Assembly: GCA_029858505.1 (NCBI GenBank)
Contig: JAOUEW010000001.1
Span: 248,001 to 312,000 of the forward strand
Direction: 5' to 3'
Source: Deltaproteobacteria bacterium
GTDB lineage: Bacteria; SAR324; JACQKK01
Length of the DNA: 64,000 nt
Under the pieces are notes generated by a model, which worked only from the letters and a program-made list of their open reading frames with translations, was not told the origin of the DNA and searched no databases. The position numbers and the translations under genes are program-made. Each line of letters opens with the position of its first letter. Within the stretch, counting starts at the first letter, position 1. Shown here piece by piece: positions 5,285 to 64,000 of this stretch.

Positions 5285-5623
5285 TCAGGTGTGCTTGATG
5301 TAGGCGGCCAACGCACCCAGCAGCGGGATGAGAATGGCAAAAAACCACAGCATTTGCTGGCGGAGTTCTCGGTGAAATTCGGCCTTTAATTCACCCCGCA
5401 TGACCTGAATTTCGGCCCGAACGCCTTGGATTTCGGCCCGAACGCCCTGGATTTCGGCCCGAACGCCTTGGATTTCGATCCGCACAAGTTCCTTGGTGGC
5501 CAGGTCTTCCCGGGCGCTGTAAGCACCGGATTCGATGACCTCGGCCAGGCTTTGAGCCTGCGCGTGATTAAAGCCGGCGGCTTCCAGCTTGCGGGCGTTT
5601 TCCAGGGTTTCCGTGATGGGCAT
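5285..5623 (-). CDS. Coiled-coil DUF1640-like membrane protein
   Basis: 112 residues: an N-terminal helix pair (FNHAQAQSLAEVI), a coiled coil, and one C-terminal TM helix at about 91-109. The coiled coil contains three exact seven-residue repeats (IQGVRAE), encoded by three 21-bp direct repeats at about 5412-5477. This layout matches the DUF1640/CCDC90-like family, related to mitochondrial MCU-regulator-type proteins but of unknown role in bacteria. Variable heptad number between strains would be expected. Lies downstream of gmk, on the same strand, with a 70-base gap. Confidence 0.7.
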   Translation of the reverse strand: MPITETLENARKLEAAGFNHAQAQSLAEVIESGAYSAREDLATKELVRIEIQGVRAEIQGVRAEIQGVRAEIQVMRGELKAEFHRELRQQMLWFFAILIPLLGALAAYIKHT

Positions 5624-5693
5624 GAGTATCTCCTTTGCGCTCTTTAACCCTAACCGAAGCTCCCTTTTGCGTCAATCTTCGCAATCTCTCCCC

Positions 5694-6446
5694 TTAGGTA
5701 AGGTTGCTTTCCAGGCTGGCGGCCACCAACCTTTCCAGGGTTTTGTCCAGGGTGCGGCCGATGTTCAGGCTGACCCGGCGGGTGAGGTGGTGAGACAGGT
5801 CCCGGCCAATGCGCTCCATTTCCTCGTGCACCTCGTCGTGTTCGGCGGCGGGGTCCACAAAGCGAAAGGGCACGTTCCGGGCAATTTCCATGTTCAAGAT
5901 GTTCAAAAACTCCAAGGCGGCGGTGTCTTTCTTGTCGTTCACCACCACGTGGTCGTACAGGTCCATGTGGGTCATTTCGTCGCGGGCTTTGTTCATGCGG
6001 CGGGAGAGGGATTCGGGGGTCTCGGTGCCGCGGTGCACCAGCCGCTGGCGCAGGGCCTCTAGGCTGGGGGGGGCCACGAAAATATAGCACCCCCCCCGAG
6101 ACAGCTCCCGCAGAGAGTGGGCCCCCTGGGTGTCAATGTCCAGCAACACCGAGTGGCCTTCTCGCAGGCGGGCGTGAATGTGGTCGCGGGAGGTGCCGTA
6201 GAGGTTGCCATACACTTCGGCCCATTCCAAAAAGCCATCCTTCTCGATCAGCCGCTGGAAGATTTCTCGGTTGACGAAAAAATAATGCACCCCGTTGGAT
6301 TCTCCGTGCCGCGGGGGGCGGGTGGTGTGGGAAATGGACATGACCAAGTCCGGGTGGTCCCGCAGGGCGGCCTGGATCAGGGTGGATTTTCCCACCCCGC
6401 TGGGGCCGGAAATCACGAATACACGGGGATGTGGTTTGTCGCTCAT
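5694..6446 (-). CDS. gmk: Guanylate kinase
   Basis: 250 residues. ATP-dependent phosphorylation of GMP to GDP in the cytoplasm. The P-loop GPSGVGKST is at 14-22, followed by the SISHTTRPPR GMP-binding segment, YFFV, FLEWAEVYGNLYGTS, and the LDIDTQGA motif. It is about 45 residues longer than E. coli Gmk because of a C-terminal tail (from about 205). Its ATG overlaps the yicC stop by four bases (ATGA), so it is the last gene of a tightly coupled operon with yicC and the WD40-like/J protein. The usual rpoZ does not follow. Confidence 0.95.
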   Translation of the reverse strand: MSDKPHPRVFVISGPSGVGKSTLIQAALRDHPDLVMSISHTTRPPRHGESNGVHYFFVNREIFQRLIEKDGFLEWAEVYGNLYGTSRDHIHARLREGHSVLLDIDTQGAHSLRELSRGGCYIFVAPPSLEALRQRLVHRGTETPESLSRRMNKARDEMTHMDLYDHVVVNDKKDTAALEFLNILNMEIARNVPFRFVDPAAEHDEVHEEMERIGRDLSHHLTRRVSLNIGRTLDKTLERLVAASLESNLT

Positions 6447-7324
6447 TCGATGTTCTGGGCCTGTTCCCGTAGTTTCTCCAGTTCCGATTTCAGTTCTACC
6501 CCCAGGCGGCTGATGTCTTGGTGCCCCCCCTTGGTGGTGAGGGTGTTGATTTCCCGGTTGAGTTCTTGAGACAGGAAGTCCATTTTTCTCCCCACGCTCC
6601 CCTGTTCTTCCATCAGTTGTTCCATGTGGTCCAAGTGGGCCATGAAGCGGGTGATTTCTTCGGTGACATCACATTTATCGGCGAATAAAGCCATTTCTAA
6701 AGCCACCCGCTCCGGGTCCACGGTTAGGCCGGGGTTCAGGCGGGCCAGGTTGTCTTTCAACCGCTGGGCGTAGAGGGCTGGCAGTTCCCGGGCCAGGGGC
6801 ACAATCTGCTCCATCAGGCCGCGCATCAGGGCCAGCCGGGCGGAAAGGTCCGCCTTCAGGGCTTGGCCCTCCACCCGCCGCATGGTGGTCAGTTGGTCCA
6901 GGGCCAAGCCCAGGGTGTCTTCGGCCAGGGCCCCCAGGGCTTCTTGGTTGTCTTCTCCCCCGCCAGGGGCGATTTCTTGAAACTCCATCATTTCACGCAG
7001 CGAAACCCGCAGGGGAATGCCCGCCTGCTCCGCTTGGCGGGCCAGTTGGGCCAGCCGGGCGAACGGGTTGGCCTGGGGCTGGCCAGCGCCATGATCGGGC
7101 GTGGCTGGCAGGTCTGGGGTGATGTGCATGGTGATTTCCACCTTGCCCCGTTCCAGCCGTTTTTTCACCACCGCCTTCAGGTCTTCTTCCAGGTGGGCCA
7201 GGGCCGGGGGCAGCCGCAAGCGGGGGTCTAAAAATCGAAAGTTGACCGAGCGGACCTCCACCCTGCACAGCCAGCCCCCGCGAGATTGTTCGGCCCGGCC
7301 AAAGCCGGTCATGGAAAGGATCAC
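6443..7324 (-). CDS. YicC family endoribonuclease
   Basis: 293 residues, starting at GTG 7324 (MILSMTGFGRAEQ), which matches the usual MIxSMTGF start of YicC proteins and overlaps the stop of the upstream gene as GTGA. The N-terminal YicC domain and the C-terminal DUF1732 domain (KCDVTEEITRFMAHLDH..., GRKMDFLSQELNREINT) are both complete. YicC in E. coli is linked to RNA degradation as an endoribonuclease. Association with gmk is widespread in proteobacteria. Both ends overlap neighbours by four bases, so translation is probably coupled. Confidence 0.9.
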   Translation of the reverse strand: MILSMTGFGRAEQSRGGWLCRVEVRSVNFRFLDPRLRLPPALAHLEEDLKAVVKKRLERGKVEITMHITPDLPATPDHGAGQPQANPFARLAQLARQAEQAGIPLRVSLREMMEFQEIAPGGGEDNQEALGALAEDTLGLALDQLTTMRRVEGQALKADLSARLALMRGLMEQIVPLARELPALYAQRLKDNLARLNPGLTVDPERVALEMALFADKCDVTEEITRFMAHLDHMEQLMEEQGSVGRKMDFLSQELNREINTLTTKGGHQDISRLGVELKSELEKLREQAQNIE

Positions 7325-9633
7325 CGGTTTTTTCTCCCTTGCTTGGCCAGTCGTTCGTCGTAGCGGGCCCGCCGCTGTTTGTCTTTCAACACTTCGTAGG
7401 CTTCTCCCAGTTTTCGGCTCATCTTTTCGGCCTCTTCTTTAATCCAGTTGAACCGGGCATGGGAGTGCATGTCGGGGTGATATTCTTTGATGCGTTTGTA
7501 ATAAGCGCTTTTCACCGCCTCGTCGCTGGCCCCAAAGGCCACCCCCAGCAGTTCATAATAAGAAGGCTCTCCCTGGGCTGGGGGGGGTTCGGCTTTGCCC
7601 GCTTGAATTTTCAGCCGGGCCAGTTGGGCCAGAATTTCCTCCAGCCGAGCGGCCATGCTGCCCAACCCGCTGGTGGCTCCCGACAACCGCCGGTGGCAGG
7701 TGCTCAGTTCCGCCTCCAGTTCCAAAAACAGCGCCGCGTGCTGGCGCTGGCTGTCGGCCTCGCGCAGCGAGCGGATTTTTCCCTCCGCCTGAAGCAGCAG
7801 CTGGTTCACCCGGGCCCGGGCGCCGGGGTCGTCGGCCCCGCGGGGTTTGGCGGGGCCGGGTTTCCCAGGGCGGGGCGGGGCCTTGGCTGGCGTGGGGCCG
7901 GTTTGGCGGGGCCGGGTAAACCGGTGGGCCCGCCAGCGTTCTTTCAGGGCCAGCAAATCCATCAACGGCTGGGCCAGAAACCGAAAGCGAATCATCAACA
8001 CCGCCATAATGCCCAGGGCCAACAAAAAGCCCAGCACCAGGGCGGCCAACTGCTGGGTATCTCCTCCCTCTTTTTCGTCAATGCGGGCTTTCAGGGCCAG
8101 GGCCCGGGAGTTGTGCTCATCCTTGCGCAGCACCTCATCGGCCATGGTGCGGGCGGCATGATACAGCCCCAGTTCGGTTTTTTCTTCGGCCTGGGCCAGG
8201 GTCAAATCCATGTTCCGCTTTTCTTCGGCCCGGCGGATCAGCTCCACCACTTCTGGATAGGCCGGGTCGGCGGGGTCCACGCTGCCGGTCAGCAGGTCCA
8301 GGGCGGCACGGTAGCGGCCTTCCTCAAAGGCTTGCCGGGCCAGGGCCAGCACCTGGGCCCCGTCGGCGGAGTGTTTTTCCGGGGCCAAAAAAGACGGAAA
8401 GCGGGGCCTGGCCTTGGCTTCGATTTCTTCCCGCATGTCTTCCATCAGGCTGGGGCTGATGCCCTCTGGGTCCAATTGGTGAAAAAAACTTTCGGCCACC
8501 GCCGTGGCTCCAGCCCCCTTCAACCGACGGATGTACTCCAGCGGAGAGCCCGGTTGGGAAAACCGATACAGCCGCAATTTTTTGCCGCTTCCCGCCAGCA
8601 GGTATTTCCCGGTGGAACTGGCGGCCAGGGCCGGGGGCACCGGCAGGTCCCACGGCGAGGCGGTTTTGCGGGTGCGGGTGTCGAGGGCCAGGGCCTTGCC
8701 CGCGGCAGCGCCGGGCAGCAGCAAATAGGGTTCGGCCAGCACCATCAGCCCGGCCTGTTCCGCCGTGTCGGGGAGTTTATCCAGGAACACCATGGATTCG
8801 GTGCGCCCCCCCAACTGCCAGGTGATGAGGTTCTTGCCCTGGTCCAGCGACAACAACCGCCCCCGCCCGGCCAGGGCCAGCCCCACCAGGGGAAAGCGGT
8901 GTCCAGTCAGGCCTGCCATTCGCCGGTGGTTGGCCAGGCTGAGCCATTGAATTTCTTTTTCGCCTTCCAGGTATAACGCCAGGCGGTTGTTGTCGGGGTC
9001 CAGGGTCATGCCTTTTACCGGGGCCCCTTCTCCGCTCCACACCGGGCCGGAAGCCGGGGGGCTTTGGGCGTGCACGGCCCGGGTAAAGACCTGGCCCCCC
9101 TGGGCCCAATACACCCGGTCGGGGTGCAGGGCAAATCCGGGGAACCCCAGGGCCCCCTTGCCCACGGCGGGCTGTTTCCACAGGCGGTGGCTGGGGTCTA
9201 GGGGTTTGCCCGCGCTCAACCGGCTGAGGGGGATGTCCCACAATTCCAGGCCGCCCTCCCCCGCCGCCACCAAGCGGTCTCCCAGGGGGGCGAAGGCCAG
9301 GGCGGTGACCCCAGTCAGGCTGGTTTCAACGACCCCCAGGGGGGCGTGGCTGCGGCGGTCGGTGAGGGTAATTTGCCCGCCTTCGGCGGAGGCCGCCGCC
9401 AGCAGCGATTCATCGGCGTTCACCGCCACGGCGGTGACGGTGAAGGGCTGGGAAATCTCGGCTTCTTGGCGCAGGGTCAGGGCTTCTGGGGCCCCCAGGG
9501 CGGTGCCCGTCAGCAGCCCGGCCAGTATGGCTGCCAGCAGCCCGGCCAACTGTAATCCTGGCCGCAGTTCCTCCCCGCCCATGGCCGTGTTTCGCAACCC
9601 AAGTATTTTTCTGGATGGGATGGCCTTGACCAT
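7321..9633 (-). CDS. Membrane protein with WD40-like propeller, TM helix and C-terminal J domain
   Basis: 770 residues from ATG 9633, preceded by GGAGTG at a good distance. Order: a hydrophobic leader near 25-45 (LAGLLAAILAGLLTG), a beta-propeller-like region to about 350 with repeats such as VTALAFAPLGDRLVAAGEGGLELWDI, a helical TPR-like segment (FEEGRYRAALDLL, GLYHAARTMADEVL), one TM helix (about 525-545, LVLGFLLALGIMAVLMI), a Pro/Ala-rich linker, a coiled coil, then a J domain (YYELLGVAFGASDEAVKSAY, HPD intact). The topology would place the propeller in the periplasm and the J domain in the cytoplasm, where it should stimulate DnaK. Stop overlaps yicC. No matching family name is known to me. 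Confidence 0.8.
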   Translation of the reverse strand: MVKAIPSRKILGLRNTAMGGEELRPGLQLAGLLAAILAGLLTGTALGAPEALTLRQEAEISQPFTVTAVAVNADESLLAAASAEGGQITLTDRRSHAPLGVVETSLTGVTALAFAPLGDRLVAAGEGGLELWDIPLSRLSAGKPLDPSHRLWKQPAVGKGALGFPGFALHPDRVYWAQGGQVFTRAVHAQSPPASGPVWSGEGAPVKGMTLDPDNNRLALYLEGEKEIQWLSLANHRRMAGLTGHRFPLVGLALAGRGRLLSLDQGKNLITWQLGGRTESMVFLDKLPDTAEQAGLMVLAEPYLLLPGAAAGKALALDTRTRKTASPWDLPVPPALAASSTGKYLLAGSGKKLRLYRFSQPGSPLEYIRRLKGAGATAVAESFFHQLDPEGISPSLMEDMREEIEAKARPRFPSFLAPEKHSADGAQVLALARQAFEEGRYRAALDLLTGSVDPADPAYPEVVELIRRAEEKRNMDLTLAQAEEKTELGLYHAARTMADEVLRKDEHNSRALALKARIDEKEGGDTQQLAALVLGFLLALGIMAVLMIRFRFLAQPLMDLLALKERWRAHRFTRPRQTGPTPAKAPPRPGKPGPAKPRGADDPGARARVNQLLLQAEGKIRSLREADSQRQHAALFLELEAELSTCHRRLSGATSGLGSMAARLEEILAQLARLKIQAGKAEPPPAQGEPSYYELLGVAFGASDEAVKSAYYKRIKEYHPDMHSHARFNWIKEEAEKMSRKLGEAYEVLKDKQRRARYDERLAKQGRKNR

Positions 9634-9717
9634 GAACAATCACACTCCGTTGGATACGAATGTTCAGCCTATTCACCCACCCGTGGATGGGGGGTGTTTT
9701 CTCCCGGGCTGCCTGGG

Positions 9718-10428
9718 TTAGTCAGGGTCAGCCTGCTGGGTTCCGGTTTTTTGCAGGGCCAGGTAAAACACGGGCTTTCCACGGGAGGCAAACATGGCCT
9801 CGAACTCGGAGCGGACCCGCCCCAGGGGAAGGGCAGACCGGTGCAAGTGGTTGGAAAACCCGTGAATCCGGCCCCAGGACACCCCGGGGAGCAACCCCAA
9901 AACATGCAAAAAATAACCCGAATGATCTGTTTTCAAGTGAAACAGACCCCCCGGTTTCAGGGCACAGCCGATGTCGTGAAGGAGCGTAGAGTTTACCATG
10001 CGGTTCCTCCACTGGGAAACCTTCACCCAGGGGTCGGGAAACAACACATAAACGTGATCCACCGTTTGGGGGGCGAAATAACGGGGAAAGGCTTCGGCGG
10101 GTTCCCGCAGCAGCCAGGCCCGCTGCCGCCCATCCCGCTCCAGTTTGCGGGCGGCCTGCACCAGCCGCTTGTAGCGCAGTTCGAAGCCCACCAGGTGGTC
10201 TTGGGGGTGCAGCCCGGCCAGTTGGGTGAGGAAATTCCCCGACCCGCTGCCCAGTTCCACGTGCAGGGCGGGGCCTTCTCCGGCCTGTTCCCTCCGCTGC
10301 TGCAATTCGGCAGGGGTGGGGTTGGCCAGCAAGCGGTCAGGGTGGTTATGCACCCAGCCAGTGTAGGGGTTCACCCAGCGGCGATGGACGGGGGGAATGG
10401 GGGGGCGGAGGGTTTCCATGGAGAACAT
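9718..10428 (-). CDS. trmB: tRNA (guanine-N7)-methyltransferase
   Basis: 236 residues with start taken at ATG 10428 (MFSMETLRPP). It forms m7G46 in tRNA variable loops using SAM. Seen: SAM-binding VELGSGSGNFL, the GFELRYKR segment, and the TrmB signature VLFPDPWVK followed by HLKTDH. No strong ribosome site precedes any candidate; 10419 or an upstream in-frame ATG near 10530 are alternatives. It lies 84 bases upstream of the WD40-like/J gene on the same strand and may be the first gene of that operon. Confidence 0.9.
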   Translation of the reverse strand: MFSMETLRPPIPPVHRRWVNPYTGWVHNHPDRLLANPTPAELQQRREQAGEGPALHVELGSGSGNFLTQLAGLHPQDHLVGFELRYKRLVQAARKLERDGRQRAWLLREPAEAFPRYFAPQTVDHVYVLFPDPWVKVSQWRNRMVNSTLLHDIGCALKPGGLFHLKTDHSGYFLHVLGLLPGVSWGRIHGFSNHLHRSALPLGRVRSEFEAMFASRGKPVFYLALQKTGTQQADPD

Positions 10429-10614
10429 GACAGCAAAAGGGTGAGGGGGAAAAACTGGGGGGTGATCGGGATATCCGCGTAGAGGGTGAAACCCCATTTC
10501 GTTCAACCTGACAAAACTTAACAATCCCAACGATTCCGTTTATCGTTTCTGTGATAGAGCGTTTCGCGTTTCCCGGCCAGGGGGTTCCCTGGCGCCCCCC
10601 CAGGACCCCCAGCC

Positions 10615-11595
10615 ATGACCGTGACGAACTTTTACAAAGTGCTTCAGGTAGACCCGGCGGCCTCGGTGGAGGTGATTAAGGGGGCCTACAAGGTGTTGTT
10701 AAAGTCGGGGCACCACCCGGACCTGGGGGGCAGCACCCAGGTGGCCTCGCTGCTGAACGAAGCCCACCAGGTGCTCACCAACCCCAAGACCCGGGCCGAG
10801 CACGACCACGCCTTGGGGCTGGGGGGCCATGGATCTGGAGGCCATGGCTCGGGGAGTCATGGCCGGGGCCGCCACCACGAGGCCTTGGCCGCGGAGACGG
10901 TGTTTATCGTGTTTTGCCCGGCCTGCCACGGCCAAAACCGGCTGGCCCACGAGGAAGAAATTCTCCACGCCAAATGCGGCCATTGCCACCGCCGGCTGCA
11001 GCCCAACCAGGATTCTCCCCTGGGGGGCGAGGACGACCGGGTGTACCGCTTGGGAATGTATTTGTTTGAGAAGGGCCTGTTCGAGCGAGCCCAGCGGGAG
11101 TTCCGCCAGGCCGTGCGGCTGAAACCCAACCATTCCACCTACCGCTATTGGCTGGCCCGCTGCCTGTACGAGCAAAAGCAGCCCGACAAAGCCCTGGTGG
11201 AAATCAAAGCCGCCATGCGGTTAAAACCCAACGCGTTTCATTTTCATTTTTGGCACGGGCAAATTTTGTATGGCATGAAAGATTTTCACCACGCCGCCGA
11301 TGCTTTTGCCCGGGCGGCGGAGCTGCGCCCCAGTCACGTGCCGTCGTTCCGGCGCCTTGGCACGTGCCACTACAACCTGCGCCAGTTTCCCCAAGCCATC
11401 GAGGCCTTTCAGCGGGCCGTTCAGGCCGACCCCAAAGACTCGCAAAGTTTTCGCTGGTTGGGGATTGCCCATTTGTCGACCAATGAATACGCCCTGGCCT
11501 TGGGGGCCTTTCAGCAGGCCGAGGCCTTGAGCCCGGAGGACGAACTGACCCGCCGCTACATTCAATTGTGCCAAGATCAAACCGCCAAAGGGTAA
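10615..11595 (+). CDS. J-domain protein with zinc ribbon and TPR repeats
   Basis: 326 residues. A J domain at 4-65 with HPD at 34-36, a Gly/His-rich linker at 69-88 (GGHGSGGHGSGSHGRG), a four-Cys zinc ribbon (C101, C104, C121, C124), then four to five TPR units from about 140 to 320 (FERAQREFRQAVRLKPN, PDKALVEIKAAMRLKPN and so on). The J domain indicates a DnaK co-chaperone; TPRs would bind a client or partner. The four-Cys ribbon is not the large DnaJ zinc-finger domain. It stands alone on the + strand, only 1 kb from the other J-domain gene. Specific job unknown. Confidence 0.8.
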   Translation: MTVTNFYKVLQVDPAASVEVIKGAYKVLLKSGHHPDLGGSTQVASLLNEAHQVLTNPKTRAEHDHALGLGGHGSGGHGSGSHGRGRHHEALAAETVFIVFCPACHGQNRLAHEEEILHAKCGHCHRRLQPNQDSPLGGEDDRVYRLGMYLFEKGLFERAQREFRQAVRLKPNHSTYRYWLARCLYEQKQPDKALVEIKAAMRLKPNAFHFHFWHGQILYGMKDFHHAADAFARAAELRPSHVPSFRRLGTCHYNLRQFPQAIEAFQRAVQADPKDSQSFRWLGIAHLSTNEYALALGAFQQAEALSPEDELTRRYIQLCQDQTAKG

Positions 11596-55898: not shown

Positions 55899-56024
55899 CC
55901 CGGTAAGGCACAGGGAAACCTTTGTGGAACTTATTTTTTCCCATCCCCCTGCCCCCTTCCCTGGGGGAAGGGGGTTGATTTGGGGGGGGCTTCGCCCCCC
56001 CTGCCCCCTTTTCAGGGCAATCAT

Positions 56025-56136
56025 CCTGTTGACGCAATCCTGTTGACGCAATCCTGTTGACGCAATCCTGTTGACGCAATCCTGTTGACGCAATCCTGTT
56101 GACGCAATCCTGTTGCCGAAATCCTGTTGACGCAGT
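56025..56136. repeat. Tandem array, eight 14-bp units
   Basis: Unit CCTGTTGACGCAAT. Six perfect units from 56025 to 56108, one variant with three substitutions at 56109-56122 and a last one at 56123-56136 with an A-to-G change. Located in the 500-base gap after the histidine kinase gene. Not a CRISPR: no spacers. Confidence 0.95.
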
Positions 56137-59389: not shown

Positions 59390-60043
59390 CTAATACGGAT
59401 CGGGATCGTTATTTTCGAACATATAGTCCCTCGATTCATCTTGATCGATGTCTTTCAAGTTGCCAAGATATTCATTGCATCCATAAAAGTACCCATCAAC
59501 CGCCTTTATGCAATCCGCAAGTGTCGGTAGGTGTAAACGGTCATAATCGGCTGGAACAGGATTTCCCTTCGTATCAACGGGGTATCGAAAGGAAAAAGAA
59601 TTGGGGTCAATTTTTGCAAACTCAAGGATGTTCTCTTTAACTACGTGATCGCTTTCTGTTAAGTCAAACTTGTTAAGCTCCAACACTTTCATGAATTCCT
59701 TCCAAAGTGTGCCGAGGCAGTGGCTTTTCCAATTGGCTTCAATGCCGACAATAGGGCCATATTCTGCCAACAGATACTTAAGCCATAACTCCAAGAAATG
59801 GCGATAGTTGAAGATTATCGGGAAGACAAGTGAGTCTCTCATATGGTGCTCACTCACTGATTTGTCTACCATCAGGTCAGCAGCTTCCTTGTAGCCTTGG
59901 ATCATCCGTTCAAACCGAAATGCACCTGTGATGTTGGCGTTGTCGTGTGGGTCGTCGGCTACGGCAAATAGCTTATCGCCTTTTGTGGGCCATCGGATTT
60001 CAGATGCCGATAAAAGATATTCGCCCGATTTATCATTGGTCAT
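59390..60043 (-). CDS. HEPN-like hypothetical protein, AT-rich
   Basis: 217 residues, ATG 60043. A helical protein with NYRHFLELWLKYLLAEYG and a SHCLGTLWKEFMKVLE helix, patterns seen in HEPN-like nucleotide/RNA-binding toxins, followed by SFSFRYPVDTKGNPV. The gene is much lower in GC than its neighbours, suggesting transfer. No nucleotidyltransferase partner. A terminator follows. HEPN is a tentative call; the family is otherwise unknown to me. Confidence 0.55.
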   Translation of the reverse strand: MTNDKSGEYLLSASEIRWPTKGDKLFAVADDPHDNANITGAFRFERMIQGYKEAADLMVDKSVSEHHMRDSLVFPIIFNYRHFLELWLKYLLAEYGPIVGIEANWKSHCLGTLWKEFMKVLELNKFDLTESDHVVKENILEFAKIDPNSFSFRYPVDTKGNPVPADYDRLHLPTLADCIKAVDGYFYGCNEYLGNLKDIDQDESRDYMFENNDPDPY

Positions 60044-60165
60044 ATCTTTCCCCGTCTAAAAGGTTTCTTCACGTCCGTTCCTCCTCTACAAGGATCCGGA
60101 TTCTAATGGCATTCTCTCATCAGAGATTGGTGGTCTGGTACCTTCACTGTTTGTTGGCATTAGGG

Positions 60166-60405
60166 TTATTTATTCTTCCAGTAGGGGGCGAAGCCAATCA
60201 TTTTCGATAAACACCACGCCACCAGTTTGTTGTGGCCGCCGTGGACCATGCCAGCGTAGGCCTTTTTTTGAAACGCACCGAGCGTCATTCCTTCGGCCAA
60301 CAGCTTCCCGTTGACATAACAATTGCTGCAATACTTCTCCGAGCCGCTTTCTTTGGAGTCTTTTGCCAGCGGCATCATGCAGCACTCGCAGTTTTTTGCT
60401 TTCAT
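60166..60405 (-). CDS. Small zinc-ribbon protein
   Basis: 79 residues from ATG 60405 (RBS AGAGGAAAA). Cys positions CECCMMPL and YCSNCY form a zinc ribbon of the putative zinc-ribbon type (PF12674-like), followed by a helical C-terminus AYAGMVHGGHNKLVAWCLSKMIGFAPYW. Often near glyoxalase or AraC genes, and here a VOC remnant lies just upstream. Confidence 0.8.
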   Translation of the reverse strand: MKAKNCECCMMPLAKDSKESGSEKYCSNCYVNGKLLAEGMTLGAFQKKAYAGMVHGGHNKLVAWCLSKMIGFAPYWKNK

Positions 60406-60455
60406 GCTTTTCCTCTGGAGTCTAATTTTTAAGGCCAACCGTTTTCGGGTGGGGG

Positions 60456-60601
60456 TTATTTATGGCAAACCACTTCAATGTTGTGGCCGTCTGGGTCCCA
60501 CACAAAGGCCCCGTAGTAGGTGGGGTGATCATGAGGGCGGCCTGGTAAAACGGCAGGCTTTTTTTCAGGTCGCTTACGTTGATGCCGGTGTGGTCAATCA
60601 T
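60456..60601 (-). pseudogene. VOC/glyoxalase-like gene with internal deletion
   Basis: The minus strand starts with MIDHTGINVSDLKKSLPFYQAAL, the N-terminal beta-alpha unit of a vicinal-oxygen-chelate protein. The downstream part encodes HPTYYGAFVWDPDGHNIEVVCHK, the family's C-terminal end, but in another frame. About 250 bases of the middle are missing, with a frameshift at the junction near 60530. It cannot make a complete protein. It sits between ssrA and the zinc-ribbon gene. Confidence 0.85.
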
Positions 60602-60626
60602 GGGGTCTCCCGCAGGCGGGGAACAG

Positions 60627-60655
60627 AAAAAAAGGCCAACGAAAAATCGTTGGCC
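60627..60655 (-). terminator. tmRNA terminator
   Basis: GGCCAACGA stem with its complement TCGTTGGCC and then seven T residues on the minus strand, 27 bases downstream of the tmRNA 3' end. Confidence 0.9.
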
Positions 60656-60681
60656 TTGTGGAAACCTGCAACAGAAGAAAA

Positions 60682-61060
60682 TGGAGGCGGCGGGAATCGA
60701 ACCCGCGTCCTGTAAGGCGAAAACCGGGTTTTCTACAGGCGTAGCCGTTTTTTTCTATCCCGGCGCGGGGTGTTGGCTTACGGCGGCCTCACCCGCGCCC
60801 GCCCCGGTTGGTTGTTTCCGCCAAGCCCCGGGGGATCCTGTCGGATGAGCGTGAGGAGTTATGCGGCGACCCCTCTATCACGCCTCAAGGGGGCCACATC
60901 CGGCAAATTGGTCTAACTGCGATTAGGCAGCCAGAGCAACCGGAGAATAGTCGCTGTTATTGGCAGCTGACATTGTGGGCGATTTTTAACGTGGCCATTC
61001 GTCCAACCACGGCCTGCTTGCCCGATCTTCCTCTCCTTCAGTCGAAGCCTGGTCGCCCCC
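60682..61060 (-). ncRNA. ssrA: Transfer-messenger RNA
   Basis: Rescues stalled ribosomes by adding a degradation tag. The 5' end reads GGGGGCGACCAGGCTTCGAC and the 3' end has the tRNA-like T-arm GGTTCGATTCCCGCCGCC. The resume codon GCC (60962-60964) begins the tag ANNSDYSPVALAA, ending with TAA at 60923-60925. The 3' CCA is not encoded: TTT follows the discriminator A. One-piece form, about 379 nucleotides. Confidence 0.97.
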
Positions 61061-61115
61061 ATGAACAGTGAACCACCATGGGTGGGGAAGAAGACGAGAA
61101 AGTCACTACTTTGTA

Positions 61116-61145
61116 AGTATAGCAAGAATGGTGCACGGGGGGCAA
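61116..61145 (-). promoter_or_regulatory. Predicted sigma-70 promoter of ssrA
   Basis: Minus strand TTGCCC at 61145-61140, an 18-base spacer and TATACT at 61121-61116. A start near 61108 would give a ~48-base leader removed by RNase P. Confidence 0.6.
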
Positions 61146-61230
61146 ATGGAGCGCAAATGGAAGGCCTGGTGAGTGAGGGTGAGGGGCGGGTGAGGGAAGG
61201 GGGGGCGGGCGCAGGAAGGGCAAACAGGGG

Positions 61231-61860
61231 CTAGCCTGCGCCCCCGGTACCCCGGACCGTCATCAGGTGAAAGATGCCAAAGAACACCCGCCGCTGCTGA
61301 ACGCATTCCAAGCCCGCCTGGGCCAAAAGCTCCAGGGGCCGCCGGTTCCACTGGCAGCCAAAGGGTTTGGCATGGGCCTCCGCCCGGCGGTCCTGCCAGC
61401 GGCCCAGCCATTCCCGGTCGCTGCGGCCGTGCTCCAGCAACAGCAGGTGGCCCCCCGCCCGGCACACCCGGCTCATTTCCCGCAGCGCCGCCACCGGGTG
61501 AGGAAAGGTACACAAAGACAGAGACGTGACCACCGTGTCGAAGTGCCCGGAGGGGTAATCCAGTTTCTCCGCGTCCATCACCTGCAAGGACACCTCCAGC
61601 CCCAGCCGCTGGGCCCGTTGCTGGGCCACGTCCAGCATCACCGGGCTCAGGTCGCAGGCGGTCAGGGGGGTGTTGGGGGGGTAAAACCGAAAATTCTTCC
61701 CCGTTCCGGCGGCCACCTCCAGCACCCGCCCTTTCACTCGGGAGATCATTTCCCGGCGGAGCCGCCACAACCCCAGCCATTCGGGAATGGCCTCCGCCCG
61801 GTCATACCACTTGGCGGCGGCGTCATACTTTTGGCGGATGTCTTCGGCGGTGAGGGGCAT
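61231..61860 (-). CDS. Class I SAM-dependent methyltransferase (UbiE-like)
   Basis: 209 residues. GRVLEVAAGTGKNFRFYPP (motif I), ACDLSPVMLDVAQQRA, VVTSLSLCTFPHPVAALREMSRVCRAGGHLLLLEHGRS are as in UbiE/COQ5-like methyltransferases, the C-terminus with NRRPLELLAQAGLECVQQ. The substrate is not known. Its ribosome site, start and first eight codons (MPLTAEDI) are duplicated 1512 bases upstream in front of the next gene. Confidence 0.85.
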   Translation of the reverse strand: MPLTAEDIRQKYDAAAKWYDRAEAIPEWLGLWRLRREMISRVKGRVLEVAAGTGKNFRFYPPNTPLTACDLSPVMLDVAQQRAQRLGLEVSLQVMDAEKLDYPSGHFDTVVTSLSLCTFPHPVAALREMSRVCRAGGHLLLLEHGRSDREWLGRWQDRRAEAHAKPFGCQWNRRPLELLAQAGLECVQQRRVFFGIFHLMTVRGTGGAG

Positions 61861-61880
61861 GGGGGTCTCTGGTTGAAGAG
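61837..61880. repeat. Direct repeat, copy at methyltransferase start
   Basis: 44 bases matching 63349-63392 with one mismatch. Covers the RBS region, the ATG and codons 1-8. The 61881-62073 stretch beyond it holds no recognised gene. Confidence 0.95.
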
Positions 61881-62073
61881 GGTGTGATCAGGCCTTCGCA
61901 CACCCTGGCTGGGAATAAAACCAATCTCAAAAAGGGCATTGGACACATTGATGAGATGATCAGAAGGCCATCTCAGTTCGTGCTGCTTAATACTTGCGCG
62001 GCGGCAAGGGCAGCTTCTTGATATTTCTTTAACTGTTGGCACTTAATAGAACCGACACCCTGAATCCGTTACC

Positions 62074-63372
62074 TTATTGTGCTGCCTCCTGTATCTTCTG
62101 CTGCCACGCCAGCACCACGGCTTTGTTTCCCTTGGCCACCGCTTCAATGATTGTTGCCAATTCCGCTGTTTCGGCTTTGTGCGTTCCAATATAACCTGAA
62201 CGGATCAACCCGAGCATATCGGCCTCTCGGAGGTAAGTTCCGTCCAGGGCGTTGTAACTGATACGAACTCCACCCTTCGGGCCTTTGGCCTCAGGGGCGG
62301 AAAGGATATGGTTTAGATGGTCAAGAGAGACAAGAAACGATTTATGCGTGTTGCCTGAGATTTTGCGCCTCACAAATTTGAAGAAAAATGGATTACGGCT
62401 CAGCCTGTAATCGCTCAAGGAACCTTCAAAGTCAGGAATTTGCATGCGGGCTATTTCATCACGCAACTGCTGGTTAGGACGAAACAGCCAATCAGGGTTG
62501 TCACTGTCTTGCTTGTCTTCTTCAAGCATCTTGTACTGGAGCATAATGATGTTGCCCCGGGTTTCGTTGATGTAGATGAGGTCAACACCCAACAGCCTCT
62601 CCAAGGGCAGTTTGTTGGCGGTGTAAATCACTAGTTGCTCGCCGTCCTTCCGAAAAACGGCCCGCCCTGTCACATCATGGGATATCTTATCGAAGCCGGG
62701 CAGTTGTGTTGCATCATGATGCACCACGTTATCCTCATAGAGGTAAGTTCCGATAAGACCGAGGCAGGATGATGCGCCCCTCTTCAGAACAACTTGTTCC
62801 GGTGTGTCATTACCCCGAATTCTAAAAATATCCATTGCCGACCTAATGGCATCTTCTTGTGCCCAGGGGTTATCTGTAACGCGCCTCAACCCAGGTAAAA
62901 GGGAAAAAGCCATATCCAGGGCCGAATGATTTTCAGGATTTTTTGCCAGAGTTTCGACTAGGTGAGCACTAAGTTTGGGCGTGAGGTTTGTAATTCCCCC
63001 TTTATCAGGCATGCGATCAACCAGGATGCGCTTCATTTTTGCGTCAGAGATTAACGCTTCAATGGCTTGAAAGGAATCAGGGTGCAAGGCACGCAGTTCT
63101 TTAATGGTGAGGCGAGAATCGAACGTGCTCACGGTTGTTTTGCGGGAAACCGTGGCCAGGTAGCACTTGGTTCCATTGCCTTCTTGTATTTCCAGCAAAC
63201 AAAGCGTTGGTGGTTTGATCGGCTGGAGGACAGAGTGGGTCTTTACTATGGTGAGGTGTTTGAACCCCTGCCGCGAATTGTGCAAGGACTCCGAAAAATC
63301 CTCATCAAAGCGAATCAAAATCATGGGCTTCTTCTGAACCCATTTGCAGATGTCTTCGGCGGTGAAGGGCAT
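62074..63372 (-). CDS. Unrecognised 432-residue protein, AT-rich insert
   Basis: 432 residues, starting at ATG 63372 inside the direct repeat, so its first eight residues (MPFTAEDI) and its ribosome site are copies of those of the methyltransferase. An earlier Met at 63402 is not favoured. No TM helices or signal sequence. Central region: KRGASSCLGLIGTYLYEDNVVHHDATQLPGFDKISHDVTGRAVF and DLIYINETRGNIIMLQYKMLEED, the latter reminiscent of the ExK-type nuclease core (D...Q-Y-K), which would suggest a PD-(D/E)xK-like fold; this is a weak visual match. Lower GC than its neighbours. Confidence 0.7.
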   Translation of the reverse strand: MPFTAEDICKWVQKKPMILIRFDEDFSESLHNSRQGFKHLTIVKTHSVLQPIKPPTLCLLEIQEGNGTKCYLATVSRKTTVSTFDSRLTIKELRALHPDSFQAIEALISDAKMKRILVDRMPDKGGITNLTPKLSAHLVETLAKNPENHSALDMAFSLLPGLRRVTDNPWAQEDAIRSAMDIFRIRGNDTPEQVVLKRGASSCLGLIGTYLYEDNVVHHDATQLPGFDKISHDVTGRAVFRKDGEQLVIYTANKLPLERLLGVDLIYINETRGNIIMLQYKMLEEDKQDSDNPDWLFRPNQQLRDEIARMQIPDFEGSLSDYRLSRNPFFFKFVRRKISGNTHKSFLVSLDHLNHILSAPEAKGPKGGVRISYNALDGTYLREADMLGLIRSGYIGTHKAETAELATIIEAVAKGNKAVVLAWQQKIQEAAQ

Positions 63373-63392
63373 GGGGGTCTCTGGTTGAAGAG
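63349..63392. repeat. Direct repeat, copy at start of the 432-residue gene
   Basis: Partner of 61837-61880. It ends exactly at codon 8 of the downstream gene. Confidence 0.95.
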
Positions 63393-63411
63393 TGCGCTTC
63401 AATTTGAACCA

Positions 63412-63513
63412 TCACTTAAAATCCCGGAACACGAAGAACACCGCTCCCATCAGGCACAGGCCCGCCCAGGCCGAGAGCGATGCCGAGATCAAGAGGGTCA
63501 CCGGGCGCGTCAT
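63412..63513 (-). CDS. Possible 33-residue single-TM protein
   Basis: MTRPVTLLISASLSAWAGLC continues LMGAVFFVFRDFK. One TM helix spans nearly the entire peptide. No strong RBS. If real, it was originally the gene just upstream of the methyltransferase before the insertion. Tentative. Confidence 0.4.
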   Translation of the reverse strand: MTRPVTLLISASLSAWAGLCLMGAVFFVFRDFK

Positions 63514-63619
63514 GGATCAGGGGCCTGAGCGCATGAGTTCGGGTTGGTGTTTTCCCTAATTTCGGATAAAATAGGTAAGAAATCCAACTTTATTTCCAAC
63601 ATTCTTACTCAAAACCGCC

Positions 63620-63874
63620 ATGACCACCGTCCGGGTACGCCCCAAACACCAAATCACCCTACCGACCGCCATTGTCAACCAAGCGGGCCTGCACCCCAAT
63701 GACCTGCTGGAAGCCAGTTACGTCAACGGGGTCATCACCCTGGTGCCCAAGGGCAGGGGGGCGGGGGAGGAAGATTTGATGGCCTACGCGGGCATTGCGG
63801 AGGGCCTGTATGGAAAAACCCGCCAAGAAATTGACGCGAACATCCGCCAACTGCGTGACGAGTGGGAACGATGA
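63620..63874 (+). CDS. AbrB/VapB-like antitoxin
   Basis: 84 residues. AbrB swapped-hairpin start TTVRVRPKHQITLPTAIVNQAGLHPNDLLEASYVNGVITLVPKG followed by a helical toxin-binding tail. Its stop overlaps the PIN-domain gene's ATG (ATGA), the standard arrangement of toxin-antitoxin pairs. Confidence 0.9.
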   Translation: MTTVRVRPKHQITLPTAIVNQAGLHPNDLLEASYVNGVITLVPKGRGAGEEDLMAYAGIAEGLYGKTRQEIDANIRQLRDEWER

Positions 63875-64000
63875 CTACTCCCCTGGCCTCCCTGCGTGGG
63901 CACCGGGTGTATCTCGACACCAATTGCCTCATCTATTTTTTCATCCGCGACCCCGATTATTTTGAGGCGGCTTTTGATATTTTGAATGCCTGTAAACAAG
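63871..64000 (+). CDS. PIN-domain toxin (VapC-like), 3' end outside window
   Basis: The first 43 residues are visible: GHRVYLDTNCLIYFFIRDPDYFEAAFDIL, with the first catalytic Asp in the YLDTN motif. A ribonuclease toxin of the VapC type by homology and by its overlap with the antitoxin gene. Runs off the window. Confidence 0.88.
   Translation, partial: MTTPLASLRGHRVYLDTNCLIYFFIRDPDYFEAAFDILNACKQ

Follow-up and report, generated by a model that had tools for sequence, protein, structure and literature searches.

A fragment of an anti-phage BREX operon has, very probably, been inserted near the start of a methyltransferase gene in this bacterium, with about 47 bp of the target duplicated on either side of it. 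The window (the whole 64,000-nucleotide stretch that was analyzed) carries, on its minus strand, a foreign gene that begins with the start codon and first codons of its neighbor. Read along that strand, the order is upstream flank, repeat copy B, foreign gene, repeat copy A, and methyltransferase. The features are as follows.

61231..61860, minus strand: host gene, an intact class I SAM methyltransferase of 209 aa (MPLTAEDIRQKYD...), matching Pfam Methyltransf_11 (4.8e-20) and related families
61831..61880, minus strand: repeat copy A, covering the start region and first codons that belong to the methyltransferase itself
61881..61975, minus strand: 95-bp filler between the BREX homology and copy A, with no convincing source match
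61976..62077, minus strand: truncated remnant of the BREX gene that follows (DUF3644, PADLOC PDC-S19), comprising its first ~34 codons, with the ATG changed to ATA
62074..63372, minus strand: fusion open reading frame (ORF) P0001, 432 codons, with codons 1 to 8 from the methyltransferase and the remainder from an accessory gene of BREX that carries a PD-(D/E)XK-like signature
63343..63392, minus strand: repeat copy B, the duplicate of the methyltransferase start, joined in frame to P0001, with BREX homology from 63345
63412..63513, minus strand: putative 33-codon ORF (MTRPVTLLISASLSAWAGLCLMGAVFFVFRDFK), read from the sequence, in the upstream flank of the inferred empty site

A repeat search of the window returned the 50-nt direct repeat at 61831-61880 and 63343-63392 (94% identical, spacing 1512). 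Its core of 44 bp (61837-61880 and 63349-63392) contains one mismatch and grows to 47 bp with two mismatches when host codon 9 is added (CGC versus TGC). This confirms the initial annotation, which had described a 44-bp repeat of the start region 1512 bases apart with one mismatch; exact direct repeats in 60001-64000 reach 26 bp, compared with a maximum of 14 bp over 200 dinucleotide shuffles. A search of the genome found these two copies and no third, as for a single-copy target sequence rather than a dispersed element, and the repeat search found no inverted repeat pair bounding the insert. Repeats of other kinds occur elsewhere in the window. A dispersed element, CCCCTCCCC(A/G)TCGGAGA(A/G)GG, is present in five copies (21904, 32533, 38547, 38660, and 43181; 0.01 expected in the window), and a tandem array at 56023-56134 consists of eight copies of a 14-bp unit (ATCCTGTTGACGCA) with 95% matches.

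The reading frame of the methyltransferase is intact, in agreement with the earlier proposal that the host gene was kept whole. It would have stayed complete because the duplicated stretch covers its upstream region, its ATG, and its first 8 to 9 codons. The gene has a GC content of 67%, compared with 60% for the window, and its best orthologue among relatives is 59% identical, with an upstream region that cannot be aligned. On the far side of the insert, the putative 33-codon ORF stops 39 bp upstream of the fusion ATG. Beyond it, at 63620-64000, lie a MazE/AbrB-type antitoxin gene and then the start of a PIN-like toxin gene, both divergent from the insert.

The insert itself is 1.46 kb long, with a GC content of 47 to 49% in surroundings of 60%. 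Copy B includes the ATG and eight codons and continues in frame into the 432-codon ORF, as had been claimed, and the composition of that ORF (49% GC versus 60% for the window) supports a foreign, AT-richer origin. The gene was less easily placed by profile searches, since P0001 has no match in Pfam, NCBIfam, PADLOC, or PDB sequences. A scan of GTDB genomes identified 11 loci with relatives at 67 to 81% identity in organisms of several phyla; carriers include Desulfosarcina, Competibacteraceae, Thiosymbion, Alcanivorax, Geobacteraceae, Pseudohongiella, and Nitrospirae. Most of these relatives sit between pglX and DUF3644/PDC-S19-pglZ-brxL in type-I-like BREX operons, and at five loci (L022, L024, L028, L029, and L031) the relative lies between a pglX-like gene and DUF3644. 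Most overlap the end of the pglX-like gene (an ATGA overlap was seen directly) and are followed by DUF3644, pglZ-like, and brxL-like genes. The operon is fullest in L024 and similar at the loci of other relatives; by Pfam and PADLOC, the order there is BrxC (1195 bits), PglX (1694), PDC-S19/DUF3644 (564), PglZ (1102), and BrxL (1009).

The homology to these donor loci does not end with the gene. The insert extends ~193 bp past the stop of the ORF, and its DNA matches L024 at 85% identity between 63345 and 61999 and can be aligned with L023 as far as 61976, so that the alignment crosses both the P0001 stop and the junction of two BREX genes. The DUF3644 remnant (102 bp) is 64 to 73% identical to its orthologues at the DNA level. 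For the 95-bp filler, we found no convincing match in the donor loci, in the bacterium's own genome, or in plasmids, and no significant fold. No transposase, integrase, or other recombinase was found in the insert. Because the insert continues beyond the P0001 stop into a second BREX gene, its sequence identifies it as a fragment of a BREX operon cut inside both of its end genes, not a self-mobile cassette. Two elements of the initial annotation must accordingly be revised: the gene is not of unknown origin, being a BREX accessory gene accompanied by part of the following one, and the term "cassette," with its implication of boundaries of its own, does not fit an arbitrary operon fragment.

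Knowing the type of donor operon, we could compare the 5' join with both parental sequences. Copy B reads CTCTTCAACCAGAGACCCCCATGCCCTTCACCGCCGAAGACATC TGC, and copy A is identical except for CCCCTC and CGC. Around the join, the host has GACATC CGC CAAAAG, the donors have AAGATC GC(A/G) AAATGG, and the joined sequence is GACATC TGC AAATGG. On the simplest reading, the ninth codon of the host would pass in frame into the ninth codon of the donor, with one later C-to-T change. The two parents are alike near this point (host ATCCGCCAAA and donors ATCGC(A/G)AAA), which suggests microhomology at the join, the likeness being too short for proof.

The consequence is a gene whose own start has been exchanged. 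Relatives begin MSAAVKIAKW, M-S-A/T-A-x-K-I-A-K-W, or similar (MS(A/T)A.. or MNAA..), and the protein in the window begins M-P-F-T-A-E-D-I-C-K-W, its native start having been replaced in frame by the MPFTAEDI of the methyltransferase. Rather than being widespread in homologues of the 432-residue protein, the MPxTAEDI start occurs in 0 of the 11 close relatives, which supports the suggestion that the newcomer uses the translation start of the host gene.

We propose that a piece of foreign BREX DNA, from codon 9 of the accessory gene through about codon 34 of DUF3644 together with ~95 bp of other sequence, would have been captured at a broken or stalled site where 47 bp were copied twice. The joining would be by illegitimate repair, whether through microhomology, template switching, or fill-in of staggered nicks, and the duplicated upstream region, ATG, and 8 to 9 codons would have given the truncated newcomer a start in frame. 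The arbitrary extent of the operon fragment argues for such repair of incoming DNA and against a dedicated element. The presence of ComEC in the genome is compatible with DNA uptake; Ku-dependent end joining was rejected, as the genome has no Ku. No targeting of gene ends would be needed. An insertion inside a gene breaks the gene unless the duplication reaches the gene end, so that duplications ending at gene termini would be favored simply because insertions elsewhere in genes were lethal or lost. Survivorship is thus the simplest, and a probable, explanation for the preservation of the host gene.

Site-specific integration, too, typically leaves direct repeats on both sides that restore the end of a gene, and the copies differ by 2 to 8% in the cases seen here. 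The repeats might then be attL and attR sites of an integrase-type or cis-mobilizable element that carries a copy of the gene terminus and is mobilized in trans. We consider this improbable, as no recombinase was found in the present insert or recognized in the other cases seen, the repeats vary in sequence and in length (37 to 127 bp) between cases, and no third repeat copy exists in the genome. In addition, the insert ends inside two different BREX genes, and it is the start of a gene, not its 3' end, that is duplicated. Marginally less probable still is single-crossover (Campbell-type) integration of a circular DNA in which the methyltransferase start had been fused to P0001 beforehand. Such an event likewise gives a direct repeat flanking the insert and would account for the diverged copy B, but it requires a pre-existing fusion in another replicon, and the fused start is seen in none of the 11 close relatives; moreover, 44 to 47 bp is near the lower length limit for homologous recombination. 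Least probable of all, and in our view very unlikely, is a tandem duplication of the methyltransferase start followed later by capture of foreign DNA between the copies, which would suit the signs of more than one historical step in the divergence of the remnant and the repeat (see below) but requires two independent events at one place and sits poorly with a join directly after the last duplicated base.

The initial annotation had linked this locus to a similar case at 39 kb as a shared mode of cassette capture and had suggested a search of the genome for further repeat pairs. We compared 864 kb of the genome, about 31% of it, with itself, and used 800 kb from four other genomes as controls. 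Clean two-copy pairs numbered four in the 864 kb, the present one included, and one in the controls. The three further pairs and the control pair are as follows.

38939-39065/39757-39883, in the window: 127 bp, 96% identical, repeating the 3' terminus of a gene for a class-V aminotransferase (cysteine desulfurase-like); insert of 691 bp with a 190-aa ORF without a Pfam match
L048 (G000:C4:160001-180000), 8788-8845/9677-9734: 58 bp, 97% identical, at the 3' terminus of a gene with a methyltransferase domain; insert with an intact vapBC-type module, read by eye as an 85-aa antitoxin and a PIN-like toxin
L053, 8597-8633/9753-9789: 37 bp, 92% identical, apparently intergenic, behind a purF-like gene; insert of 1.1 kb, 37% GC, with a 298-aa ORF without a Pfam match
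L094 (G031, control), 9454-10816: 58 bp, close to the 3' terminus of a gene for a DUF4143 ATPase; insert with two small ORFs (82 and 96 aa) of toxin-antitoxin-like look, without Pfam support

The idea of a shared mode therefore stands in part: the same architecture is seen at 39 kb and at two more sampled places (probably so for L053), while the "cassette" label falls away. The counts are too small for us to claim enrichment in this genome relative to the controls. The vapBC module of L048 would be a second selfish or defense-like gene captured in the same way. Four other matches were set aside: L068, where the repeat starts in tRNA-like sequence; L104, which consists of tandem paralogues; L054 (11010-13438), a large tandem array with units of roughly 190 bp; and L056 (9982-10795), where a 53-bp terminator-like hairpin repeat flanks a DUF2269 membrane gene and has a third copy in the sample.

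Between repeat copies A and B, 2 of 47 positions differ. The change in the DUF3644 remnant is about fivefold greater; its pN is 0.21 to 0.25, about ten times the 0.01 to 0.03 found among intact orthologues. If remnant and repeat shared one age, two or fewer repeat differences would have a P of about 0.005. Because the remnant is so much more diverged than the repeat copies, the fragment probably left a working BREX system before the present insertion, or the repeat copies may have been homogenized.

It is quite possible, if somewhat short of probable, that the duplicated start is real and P0001 nevertheless a decaying relic without function. Its 5' end has been replaced, and its dN/dS to the closest relatives is 0.17 to 0.25, compared with 0.09 to 0.14 among those relatives themselves, which indicates that constraint is partly relaxed. 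PglX has no match in the present genome, so that the P0001 copy is an orphan without BREX core genes. Yet the ORF has remained open over all 432 codons beside a decayed remnant, at whose rate about 9 stops would be expected, and its pN of 0.093 is well below the 0.22 of the remnant (Fisher p 0.002). Every candidate active-site residue has also been kept. Within the block LE.....G.DLIY.N.........QYK..E, the named letters are invariant among relatives down to 26% identity, as are the candidate active-site residues E258, D264, Q279, and K281, all of which are retained in P0001. We take this E-D-QxK pattern to resemble the signature of PD-(D/E)XK nucleases.

Structural models were less informative. 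The fold sought was the alpha-beta-beta-beta-alpha-beta core, and in models of the C-terminal part, pLDDT was mostly below 50; the AlphaFold prediction of the whole protein was usable for the N-terminal part only. Foldseek matches of that part to YTH and ASCH-type domains were nonsignificant (E values of 0.13 and 0.6) and are a hint, not a result, that it may adopt a modified-base-reading fold.

From these patterns of conservation, we infer that P0001 belongs to the accessory effectors of PD-(D/E)XK type and is at present an orphan, translated from the methyltransferase start. As the signature is kept and the ORF is open beside a decaying neighbor, this putative orphan effector may still work. 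A bolder reading, which we regard as tentative and on balance doubtful, is that P0001 is a stand-alone anti-phage nuclease that has stayed under selection after leaving BREX, with a borrowed start, and that small defense and toxin-antitoxin genes travel as naked fragments in this lineage, surviving only where the target duplication spares the neighboring gene.

Other members of the family are also found apart from a full operon. Among the 11 loci, L026 and L032 are standalone, L032 alone and L026 (Alcanivorax, 5485-8272) with DUF3644 and the last ~500 bp of pglX but no full pglX, which makes L026 another BREX fragment outside a full operon; no direct repeats were found around either. Distant relatives (26 to 33% identity) occur on Novosphingobium, Pseudomonas, and Pelagibacterium plasmids, with no BREX neighbors annotated within the stretch seen. 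No relatives were found in phage records or viral contigs, and the gene is absent from the other genomes of the phylum examined.

BrxU is a type I BREX auxiliary nuclease placed between brxX and brxZ. Most P0001 relatives similarly lie between pglX and pglZ and carry a nuclease-like signature; unlike such auxiliary nucleases, P0001 has no Pfam, NCBIfam, or PADLOC model and stands alone with a foreign start and no BREX system. The PDC-S19 gene (DUF3644; Pfam PF12358) lies directly downstream in most relatives, and its first 34 codons are in the insert; unlike the full gene, the piece here is only a start-less, decayed stub. PD-(D/E)XK-type nucleases are reported to be frequent auxiliary effectors in BREX loci (PMC12839542).

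In its sequence organization, the locus matches an already described pattern, insertion with long target duplication, known from Helicobacter (Nobusato et al. 2000, as cited in PMC3874152 and PMC1643837). Restriction-modification (RM) systems, the genes of which are reviewed in PMC3874152, insert in this way and duplicate target stretches of around 100 bp (PMC3874152, PMC1643837). Here too, a foreign defense-type gene without a transposase is flanked by long direct repeats of the target, the repeats are of variable length, and the insert is AT-richer than the host. The Helicobacter cases concern RM genes, whereas the present insert holds one BREX accessory gene and a piece of its neighbor, and here the duplication supplies the start codon. 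Transposed non-transposon genes of Arabidopsis likewise have direct flanking repeats of over 30 bp, many of them target derived (PMC2869330), but they are eukaryotic and moved within a genome.

What is new here is the identified type of BREX donor, the start borrowed in frame, and an unnamed family of BREX-associated proteins. The present locus offers a clear case of one known but poorly understood mode by which small defense genes move without a transposase. It also illustrates how a gene severed from its start could regain one in a single step, and it draws attention to the unnamed protein family associated with BREX, whose members may be able to act on their own.
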